From Telmatactis stephensoni (taxonomy: Eukaryota; Cnidaria; Anthozoa; Actiniaria; Isophelliidae), in assembly GCA_029948255.1 (NCBI GenBank), contig JALIZF010001801.1:558001-622000 (forward strand): a stretch of 64,000 nucleotides of DNA. The letters are read 5' to 3'. Position numbers and translations under genes: made by a program. The stretch's first letter is position 1, and each line of letters begins with the position of its first letter. Under the pieces are notes generated by a model. That model saw only the letters and a list, made by a program, of their open reading frames with translations. It was not told the DNA's origin and ran no database searches. This document shows, one piece after another, positions 33,401 to 39,400 of this stretch.

Positions 33401-36400
33401 CAGAATTACAGCCAAAATCGTTGCATCGCGACCAGCAAATTACAAATTTTGGTTTGATTTTGGGTTTTTCTGATCCGTCAATCAGTTTGGGGGCGGAGCT
33501 TATTACAAATCAACCAATCACTGAACGAGTTCGTGAAAGCACCGCCCCCAAGAATGATGGACCGATCATAAAAGACAAAAACACTGCCGACGTTAGAGGT
33601 CGCGATGCAACGAATTTCGCTGTAAAGTGGAAAGAAGAAGCAGTGAATGAGCTAATGCACTGACGGACAGAGGAACAAAGAAGCAATCGTTACCTGTTTG
33701 AAAAAGCTACTGACAGTGAGTGTGACAGGTCTAAACTTTATAAGGTCTGGCACTGTTTCAAACTCAGTTGGTTCAACCATTAAACTACCATGGAAAGATT
33801 TCCGCTGGTCAGCAATGTTTGTAGATCGTGGGAAACTCTCTGCTCGTTTACCAGGTTTGACAGCAGCCACTGCATCCCCACTAACCTAAAATAAACCAAA
33901 AACTCTTCGAAAAAAATCCCCTCTAAAACAAACACCTAAGGAATAGCAAAGGTTATTTATCTTTGAGAGAACACCATCTTGTAAAGTTTGAGTACAATAA
34001 GAGTAGAGAACATATATTTTTATTACAGAAAGTTTGTTGTAATTACCTTTCGTCCCCCAGGTGTTGCGCCTGAAATGATTTCCTTCTCGTTTGTGGCACC
34101 AGTTTCAGCAGTAGCAGCACCACTAATGATGTCTATAAGATGAATGGCTGTCCAAGCAAATGGCATCCTGTATTTACCCAGTCTATCAACACTTCCTAAT
34201 ACTGATGAACGAACTTTTTCTCTTTGCTAAAAACGAGAGAAAAACAAATGCAATCAAACAGGAGGAAGGAGAAATCTCTTCCCAAATTGCGCCATTCACT
34301 GACATGACACCATGAGTAGTTAGATCCCCCTAAAAATGATTGTACTTTTAGGGAGGGGTGGTGTAGTCAAAATACACGCATATTTAAGAAAATCTTATGT
34401 AAAGTGTTTTAGCATTACCAAAATACTTTATCTGTCTCAGTATTTGGCAATCAATTTACATTTTCTTTGTGCAAATACAACATACAACAACATTTCTTGT
34501 TTTGCCGTCAACCTAAAACATTTCTTGTTTTACCTTTGGATTTTCCGTGTCTTTCATGTAGGGTTCTGCTATCTCACTAATGTCTCCTTGTTGTAAAATT
34601 TTCTCTAGTTTGATGACCAAAAACACATCCGTTGAAGGATATGTGATGGAAAAGATGGCTGAACGACTAAGTGTTGAAATGTCTGTACGTGGTGTGGTTT
34701 CTTTTAGGAGTTTACGACACCATTCGGGATTCATATCAAAGTAAAAATTTTCTGAAATCTAACAAGAAAACAATGTTAATAAATGAACAGTTCCACATTC
34801 ATTCGTTCATTCATTCATTCATTCATTCATCTATTGACCAACATTTAGTCAGTCAGTCAGTCAATCACTTTGCCTTACCTTTTTCTTCACACGAAGGTCA
34901 TACAGTGCCATACTAGCAAAAATTGGTTCCACTTCAATCTCAAGTCTACGAAAAATACAAACTAACTGAGTGTACTGAATGATTTGTTTTCAGCAATTCA
35001 CTTGGCAAAGTTTGCCCTGTGTGATGCTAAAAGAAAGAGTACATGTACTTGCTAACAGGTCGAACATAATTATATAGCCATATATGAGTCCCAATGGAGC
35101 CAGAGATGTTTTTGTGACATCCATAGGCTGCATACTCGGGCATACCCAATCTTCCCTTTGATTCTTATAGTCTAGAGCCACATATAAGTCTGTTGCCTAA
35201 TAGGCTACTGGTATAGCCACTGGTGCCTTACGATATGTATTGAGCTTTGAGCTTGGGCAACCAGAATTATGTTCTAAAGAGCATGAACTCAGCTCAGCTT
35301 CTGACTTGTAGTTTTGGAGGCACATGCTTCCACAGGCACAAAGGGCTACAAATAATTTTTCTTAGGCTGCAGCAGTCTTGCACATGGCTAGTTCACTTAT
35401 TTCATTGTAGTTGAATTATCCCATCAGGAGGGCATCCTTGAGACAATACTAAAATGTAAACTATGTTCTCATAGAGTTTGGGAAAAGGAGCGAGTGTTCA
35501 AGATGGATAATAAGGCACAATAGTGAGGGTGAGATGCAATTGCATTGAGCTCTTATGGGAAATTGACATTTTTAGTGGTTGTAAAATTTTGGTATGATCA
35601 TTATCGCAATCCAAAGAAGTTTTTCAGCTTACTTTAAGGTAGTTGGGGACCCTTGCTACCGCGCATCTCGCGCGCGCACTTTTATTAAAGAACATTCGCT
35701 TGGCACTAGCGAGTCAGCGATTGAAAACCGAAGAAATTCGTTTTTTGGTAAAGAAAAATAGTATTTTATCGACCGGATTCTGCAAGCAAATTTATCAAAA
35801 CATGTTGTGCACCGTGTAAAGTAGGAGAAAAAGCTCAAACTATAAAATTTAGGGATCTATTATGAGTCGAAAAGGAGCAGAGAACAATGGCTGATTTTTT
35901 GTGTTCGTTTTCGAAGATTTTTACCCTTTGTTCTTCTCTAACTCTTTAAACAATTCGGTGACCCCCTGATTTTATAAATGATTTCTGCTCACAATTTTAT
36001 AAACTTTTCGTATAAAGAAAAAAAAGAATACTTCTATCGTTTCGATTTTGAGTAAATTTATCATTTTTCTGTCTGATCCTCCAAAAACGTGTATTCTAGA
36101 AGGCCATTTTTCGCATATTATTGTTGATCTTTCGCTTCTTTGCAAATTGTTCGGCAACAACTTAGTTCCAAGTGTTTTTCTGCATCCCAGGCTATCATTT
36201 TGTTTGCTTTTAAATACATTTGGTTGTTCCAAAATTCTTATAATTTGACCGGATATCGCGAGGCCATTTTTCATAAAAAGATCCCCAAACACCCCACATC
36301 TCCCCCCTCATATCTCAAGAGTGACCTCGGTGACCCCCCATTTTTATTTTACATTTTATTTCCTCCTATGCCCCTCTTTCTTTGTAGGAATTTTGAAGGC

Positions 36401-39400
36401 AAGTTTATCGTAAAAATTCATGAATCCCGAACTACCTTAACTGTAGACATTTAACAAGGACTCTTTGACCAAAGTGCTCTTGTGGAATTGTAGCAGGAAC
36501 TCTTCTTTCAATACCTTCTTCCTGCAATATAAATTATGTTTAAATTAAATTTTAACTTCTCAAGCAAAGACATGTAGCTAGAACAGATTTCATCTCTTCA
36601 AGATGTAAAACTACAAAGGCTTAATTAAAGTAAAACTGCTTTCAAATACTGTATCCCATGTTTGAGATTTCAAATACTCTGCTCCATGTTGAGGCTTGAA
36701 TTCCATAAGCACAACAAAAGAATGTATCAGCTGAGACTCTTCCTGATGATGCATGATTGACACACCTTTAATTCTCCACACTGTTACATGTACAAATATG
36801 TACATGTACATGTATTGTAGTAGTTTCCTTATTCTTATCTCCTGAAATTATTGTAAGCAGGAAATTGATTTTACTGACCTGCTGTACAGGATAAACACTA
36901 AAGCATGAATCACTACGATTGAGTGTCCTTTGTTCTCTGTTAGCAACATCAACTTCCTCTGGTGGCATTCTGTCCAGGAGTGTTGGTAGCAGATCATCAG
37001 GTTGTGATGATTGTAAGTCAAATATACTGGAAACAGAGAATTCAAAACAATTAATTTCTTCATATATAACAATACTACTTCACTTTATGGATGCTACTAT
37101 TAGGCAATACCTTATGGAAAGGAAGTCCCAAGACACAATAACTTTTAATTAAATAGACCCTTTGACCAATACAGATGTCGGTGGGGTGCAAAAGAAGCAA
37201 ACACTCAAATGACTGAAATTAGTCAAACCCCTCCCCCCCCACCTCTCTAAATCAGACAGCTCGCTAAAATTAAATTATTCAAGATAGCATCAGTATGATG
37301 TACATTAGTAGATAGGTCTATTGGCAGTCATATTGCTGTGATGTATATTATTTTAAGTGACCATTCAGGCGTACACGTAGAATATAATGTAGCAATGAGG
37401 TACCACACAAGCACTTAATTTTAGTGACGTTATTTTAGGTGATCATTACAGGCATACATTTACAATAATTGTAAACCTTGAAAATACCAAGAATGTAGCA
37501 ATGAGCTACTGCAAGCACTTAATTTAATGTTACGGTCATTTAATTAGAACTAGATTTACTGCAGCAGTATTCTATGCAAACAGTCTGTAGTATTCATCTC
37601 ATGCCATGATTTTTCTGACATAATTGGAAAATGGAGATTCATGTAATTACACATGTACGGTAAAAAAGTCACAGTCTTAATACCTGGAAGCCCAGCTTCC
37701 TTTAGGTAAATCATTCTGTAGCTTAGCTTCACTATCTTGACCTCTTTCATCTTCTTTTTCCTGGCAAAAAATAATACATCTATCACTTTATAGATAAACA
37801 AACAAACAAACAAACAAATAAATAAATATTAAATAAATAAATAAATAAATGAATAATAAATAAATATTAAATAGATAATCAAGCTCCGATCCTAGCCACC
37901 ATAATTCTAAAATTTAATGATTACAGAGTCATGTATAAATTAATGACTATGAAACTACAGTATTGTATAAATAAATATTTATTGAAAGTGTGAAATCATC
38001 TGCAATCCACAAGCAGACCACAACTGGGGACACTAAGTGTATCCTTACAATGTGTGTCCATAAATGTTGAACAATTTTGCCAAGTCAGGAATAAATATTG
38101 CAATCTAATAAAATCTATTGATTTTGTAAAAATAGTTCAAGGTGGTTCAATGAAGGTCTAGTACATTTAATTGGGGCAAGTTCTCTACCCAGGATAGTAA
38201 ATGAAAAATCAAGAAAGCCCACTGGTATTAACCTGTGACAGTCAGCACCTAGTATGCAATATATATATAATATAATATTATATGTGTCTTAAAGCATGAA
38301 TGAGTCTGCACTTGCCTGGTCAGCAGTCTTGACCTTCTCATCAACTTCAAAGACATGTTTTGGTAATGATTCAGTAAAACTTCTAGAGTGGGTAATCTTT
38401 CGACGAGAGTCTGGTTTGCCCTCTTCAGAACATCGGAACTGATATCTAAAAATGCAAATACAATGTACCTAATGTACCTGCATGTGCTGTGTAATGATAA
38501 TCTACCAAAGGCACTACATGTACATTTGTTCCTCCATTCTATAATTTCTTTCTGGGGGCAAGAAACAAGCATCAGAATAATACTCCTGGTTTCCTGAGGA
38601 TGTCAGTATTAAAGTCCCTATGACGGATAATATTTTATTTTCAAACTCAGTTCTTGAAAGAAAACATAGTAAAGATCTTTTAATCTTGTTTTTCCTCACT
38701 CCATATTTTCTGAGATATAAAGGTTTCAAATTTCAAAATGCAAATGTGATGACGTAAGAGGAGTAATCATTTATTATACAAAAACAAGAGAATTTAAATT
38801 ACTTGTATTTTTCCATTTGTAACTCATTTCCATTGGTAAAGCCTGTTGTTTAGTAAAAAATTTAGCTCTCGAATTGAAGTCCTCGTTTTGTAAAACCCAT
38901 GAGAAGTTTGCAGTGTTGCCTCCTCTTACGTCATCAAATTTGCATTTTGACATTTGAAACCTTCATATCTCAGAAAATACGAGGTAAGGAAAACCTGGGT
39001 AAAAAGATCTTCACTATGCTCTCTAAAAAGAACTAAGTTTGAAAATAAAAATCTATGTGTCATAAGGACTTTAATAGCCAATGGAACAATGTATTAATAC
39101 GCAATGGAACAATCAATTGGAACTGTACATGTGCCATCACAAAATAATAGGGGCAATTACTAAGTAAATCATTCACGTACAGGAGGAATAGTGCTGGTCC
39201 AAGGGTGGACCCTTGGGGAACACCAGAGGTAACAGGTAGCGTATTTAAAGTGGCTCCAAGAACAGTTACACATTTGATGACAATCAGTTAGGTAAGCAGT
39301 GAACCAGTTGAGTAAGTTGCCACTAAAGCTAGATGTACGCGGACGTCCACTGTTCTCCAAAAACTCCAAATTCACTCGAATAAACTACCCCAAACGTTCC

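Follow-up and report, generated by a model that had tools for sequence, protein, structure and literature searches.

In a DOCK7-like gene of Telmatactis stephensoni, a DNA transposon appears to have taken over the end of a conserved exon: an element with TTAA target-site copies and GG...CC ends would have landed on the exon end, its terminus replacing the donor, so that the old donor now persists as an intronic relict in what would be a working allele. We put the probability of this reading, which was drawn from the DNA itself, at about 0.75. In the proposed history, a short non-autonomous Kolobok-type DNA transposon would have inserted in a TTAA belonging to the last coding bases of the exon, a single base short of the exon's end. 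With the terminus GGTAG placed directly after the TTAA copy, a new 5' splice site, TTAAG|GTAGTT, would have arisen from the insertion alone, and the exon would have kept its length. The spliceosome would take out the element as the leading 798 nt of a lengthened intron, using the old acceptor, and the sole coding change would be AAA to AGA (lysine to arginine), with one base of the mRNA derived from the element. The anatomy of the site, its target-site copies, the phase, the relict donor and the presence of lysine in related proteins are established observations, and they are set out below together with the alternatives that they bear on.

A TTAA-flanked element at the end of a DOCK7-like exon

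The window, that is, the whole 64,000-nt stretch analysed here, carries on its minus strand a DOCK7-like gene running from about 43.0 kb to 11.8 kb, the first two exons of which were read by eye; DOCK7-like exons detected by tblastn span 40.9 to 11.8 kb. Homology to DOCK7-like proteins along the gene places it in the DOCK7-like (DOCK-C) group, and the closest relatives of the conceptual protein are anthozoan (residues 100-700: Nematostella 69%, Porites 67%, Acropora muricata 67%, Dendronephthya 59%). The stretch 36524-36435, which contains the affected exon, is 90% identical to the DOCK7-like protein of Acropora digitifera by tblastn. The features on which the argument depends are the following.

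36436..36521, minus strand: DOCK7-like exon of 86 nt (exon 8 of the sequence-only reading), with the tblastn match to Acropora digitifera, AG/GT bounds and an open frame
36437..36440, no strand assigned: TTAA target-site copy on the exon side, coding (TTA A..), from the sequence and the inverted-repeat search
36430..36435, minus strand: putative present 5' splice site AAG|GTAGTT, intron start 36435 (matrix 5.15; U1 duplex -6.3 kcal/mol)
35638..36436, no strand assigned: 799-bp element with inverted ends GGTAGTTSGGGA, GC 37%, longest stop-to-stop frame 111 codons, from the inverted-repeat search
35634..35637, no strand assigned: TTAA target-site copy on the intron side, from the sequence and the inverted-repeat search
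35627..35633, minus strand: relict donor A|GTAAGC, with the former exon ending at 35633 and the former intron starting at 35632 (matrix 8.03; joined site)
34879..34945, minus strand: next exon, 67 nt, whose good acceptor (it outscores 31 of the 37 acceptors of the gene) serves the lengthened intron
43284..43592, minus strand: second, incomplete copy of the element family, starting TTAAGGTGGTTCGGGACCC and cut by a TTCT microsatellite, from self-alignment

The exon, the 799-bp element, the pair of TTAA copies and the element terminus described in the sequence-only reading were all recovered base for base, both in the sequence and by the inverted-repeat search. Over 35500-36600, that search returned a single pair, 35634-35649 with 36425-36440 (16 nt, 94%, TTAA included), and the inverted ends of the element itself amount to 12 bp with one mismatch. 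On the minus strand the order is AAATGTCTACAG TTAA GGTAGTTCGGGA ... TCCCCAACTACC TTAA AGTAAGCTG, with base 36436 shared as the last of the 86-nt exon and the first of the element. The same reading had taken the G-GTAGTT that follows the TTAA for the element's own terminus, and the second copy bears this out: having the same end, it fixes the element edge independently at TTAA|GGTRGTT. It aligns with the element over 309 bp, with 214 of 325 columns identical (E 3e-22, and E 5e-20 in a second comparison). The window thus contains two copies of the family, one of which lies at an intron boundary, and the family edges rest on one full copy and one end of the second.

The 799-bp element was taken as non-autonomous because its longest frame has 111 codons and because its two longest minus-strand frames (111 and 66 codons) gave no Pfam match up to E 0.1. 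Flanking TTAA copies are also present in piggyBac elements, the ends of which read 5'-CCY. The element ends in GG...CC, and a piggyBac identity was set aside on these ends, following the distinction drawn in PMC9587614, in which TTAA target copies combined with 5'-RR...YY-3' ends form the signature that separates the Kolobok superfamily from piggyBac. Both parts of this signature are found here, namely 4-bp TTAA target-site copies and ends that begin with RR and finish with YY, whereas a transposase was not seen in the 799-bp copy. These ends and target copies fit a non-autonomous Kolobok-type element, an assignment made on anatomy. In exact scans, a 23-base pattern of the element end had 0 matches in the viral contig set and 0 in the genome contig set. 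A 16-base pattern was found in three viral contigs, with 16-17 bases matching at the terminus and two more short matches in one of them (L003); these short matches were taken as chance.

The joined site and its former donor

Removal of the element and one TTAA had been predicted to give TTAAA|gtaagc in the same phase, and joining the flanks by script gave exactly this: the joined site reads CTACAGTTAAA|gtaagc, since past the second TTAA the strand continues as A|GTAAGCTG. In the joined form, the 86-nt exon ends AAA|GTAAGC and encodes lysine, in a peptide containing CLQLKLEIEVEP; in the present form, length (86 nt) and phase are the same, but the exon ends AAG|GTAGTT and encodes arginine.

Whether the old donor is strong, as had also been claimed, depends on the measure. 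Donors were scored with a matrix based on 37 GT-AG introns of this gene (36 from 46 tried joins and one read by eye, leaving out the affected intron and nine joins with unclear or unsolved ends). By this matrix, AAA|GTAAGC scores 8.03 and comes first of the 67 GT sites located between this exon and 20 nt before the next one; it also exceeds 21 of the 37 gene donors, which may themselves look strong because the joins were picked by a score favouring consensus donors. By U1 duplex energy, in contrast, it reaches just -4.5 kcal/mol, and only 1 of the 37 gene donors is weaker. A donor with at least this matrix score at the same offset is nevertheless uncommon, being present at 3 of the 1009 TTAA sites on both strands of the window (505 + 504), this site included.

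The residue predicted by the joined site is also the residue of relatives, in agreement with the earlier claim of a lysine-to-arginine change. Among 222 proteins (the overlapping best 120 of 771 and best 120 of 2161 matches, many of them isoforms or close kin), lysine occupies the position in 205, serine in 10, arginine in 5 and threonine in 1, and one protein has no residue there. Every named cnidarian with the residue among the matches listed carries lysine (7/7: two Acropora, Nematostella, Porites, Dendronephthya, Hydractinia and Clytia); Montipora lacks it, its gene model beginning downstream. The five proteins with arginine belong to other phyla and indicate that arginine is tolerated. 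As the history of this exon end, replacement of the donor is well supported by these comparisons.

Such a site is rare within the gene. In 36 exons (a set without those upstream, the last one, two with broken frames and one whose end is uncertain), 21 TTAA sites were found within an exon or at a donor edge; nine of them would preserve the phase with TTAAG as the new exon end, and a single one, that of the affected exon, gives zero length change. This would fit the survival of a harmless case, with no aiming of the element needed.

Splicing of the present allele and rival explanations

Use of the element terminus as donor in the mRNA is the most likely mechanism, to judge from the sites available. 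The new donor, AAG|GTAGTT, has neither A at +4 nor G at +5 and is weak but within the range of the gene: it ranks seventh of the 67 local GT sites by matrix, 6 of the 37 gene donors fall below it in leave-one-out scoring, and one of the comparably weak donors, CAA|GTAGGT, likewise has G at +4. Its U1 duplex is stronger than those of 11 of the 37 gene donors and than that of the old donor, so that the rank of the two depends on the measure, the matrix favouring the old and duplex energy the new. Over the window, 6.2% of 3786 minus-strand GT sites score at least as high as the new donor.

The six local GT sites that outscore it by matrix are 36514, 7 bases into the exon (5.80), and five located in the element or intron. 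Splicing from 36514 would cut the exon down to 7 nt and cause a frameshift, and the exon's own frame read into the element meets TAG immediately, so that a donor further inside would bring in a stop. A 23-nt exonised piece beside the old donor, which by eye would shift the frame, was considered and dropped. Only the exit at 36435, among those considered, keeps the full protein, and we infer that it is the one mainly used and that the allele works.

The insertion may instead have damaged the gene, the new donor being too weak and most RNA skipping exons or being truncated, in an allele that could be recent, heterozygous or decaying. We regard this as unlikely, although several observations speak for it. 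The new donor is only seventh in its interval; joint skipping of the affected exon and the next (86 + 67 = 153 nt) would preserve the frame at a cost of 51 residues; and two further exons of the gene, 24613-24516 and 23078-22810 (minus strand), have no open frame. Broken exons could mean a decaying gene, and the harmlessness of the insertion would then mean little. However, 38 of 40 exons, counted from the affected exon onward, are open in at least one frame, in an exon table in which three bounds are off by one or a few bases (24613-24516, for example, was entered as 24614). Moreover, the two breaks, compared by eye with relatives, are one-base surpluses beside like bases and look like assembly errors, and the gene includes other donors as weak as the new one, one of them with the same G at +4. 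The earlier claim that the element landed on an exon end without breaking the frame is therefore retained in part: the landing, the phase and the legible old donor hold, whereas an unbroken gene is probable rather than observed, given the weak new donor and the two frame-broken exons.

It is very improbable that the exon boundary was always here, with a TTAA pair arising by chance and a GTAAGC beyond the element that was never a donor. The small number of copies that define the edges would leave room for such a coincidence, but the inverted ends adjoin both TTAA copies, the second copy sets the edge on its own, a donor this good at that offset is unusual, and relatives carry the residue that the joined site predicts. 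We give still less credence to removal of the element from RNA by SOS splicing, which takes DNA transposons out of host mRNA and depends on inverted repeats instead of canonical sites. A DNA transposon would leave the host mRNA in both situations, and the two ends do pair when the element is folded as RNA; yet these ends are just 12 bp long, the stability of the fold is nothing out of the ordinary (z -1.07, with 3 of 20 shuffles equally good), and an ordinary GT-AG pair is available.

Known systems and the element family

Replacement of a donor by a transposon end has precedents, as transposon ends that supply 5' splice sites are already known. In maize, the terminus of Ds elements inserted in exons, for example in waxy, acts as a 5' splice site and most of the element is spliced out; these are mutant alleles with insertions within exons, and restoration is imperfect. 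The terminus of the DOCK element would act in the same manner, but its insertion lies at the last base of the exon and leaves the joined length unchanged. Introners provide another precedent: Gozashti et al. (2022, PMC9860276) describe them as DNA transposons that are bounded by target-site copies, have inverted ends and provide a splice site from within their own sequence, some families carrying the 5' site and co-opting the 3' site. The DOCK element shares the target-site copies and the inverted ends, and it would likewise supply a splice site. As defined there, however, introners create new introns and their similarity reaches near both splice boundaries, whereas the DOCK intron is old, its acceptor is kept and its donor alone is replaced, in a single case. 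From the end of the element at 35638 it is another 692 nt to the acceptor at 34946; an introner identity was set aside, only one boundary of the intron belonging to the element.

Among variants of these phenomena, a donor replacement in a conserved intron that keeps the exon length unchanged and the old donor legible is unusually clean. A literature search over titles and the starts of abstracts found no TTAA element replacing the donor of an existing conserved intron, which leaves its absence from print unproven. If the proposed history is right, the locus would capture a one-step change of 5' splice site in a conserved intron with both donors readable, a step that would cost one conservative residue and whose survivability the element's own end explains.

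Since TTAA is the same on both strands and both family ends begin GGTRG, insertion in either orientation would write AAG|GT at the upstream edge. It is conceivable, if doubtful, that the family acts as a 5' splice site that is portable and independent of orientation, and that it has redefined the exon ends of many genes in the lineage. If true, it would be an animal counterpart of introners that swaps the donors of existing introns and makes no new ones. Exon ends can be searched with the signature TTAAG|GTRGTT, which lets one ask how often transposons swap donors and how often they merely break them.

Other observations were made along the window. A DOCK exon near 38445-38316 (minus strand) may end in a GC donor, CAG|GCAAGT, at 38316/38315, where the automatic join chose a poor GT 3 bases further. 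The second family copy (43592-43284, minus strand) ends in a long TTCT microsatellite, some 50-200 bases upstream of what is probably the first DOCK exon. Several stretches, at 26303-26610, 38607-39076, 39929-40309, 53813-54039 and 58656-58845, align over their full length with their own reverse complements at 71-85% identity, as expected of palindromic MITE-like elements. Finally, the minus-strand open frames 50060-49614 and 49563-49375 encode the two halves of a PX domain, and a sorting-nexin-like gene probably lies upstream of the DOCK gene.
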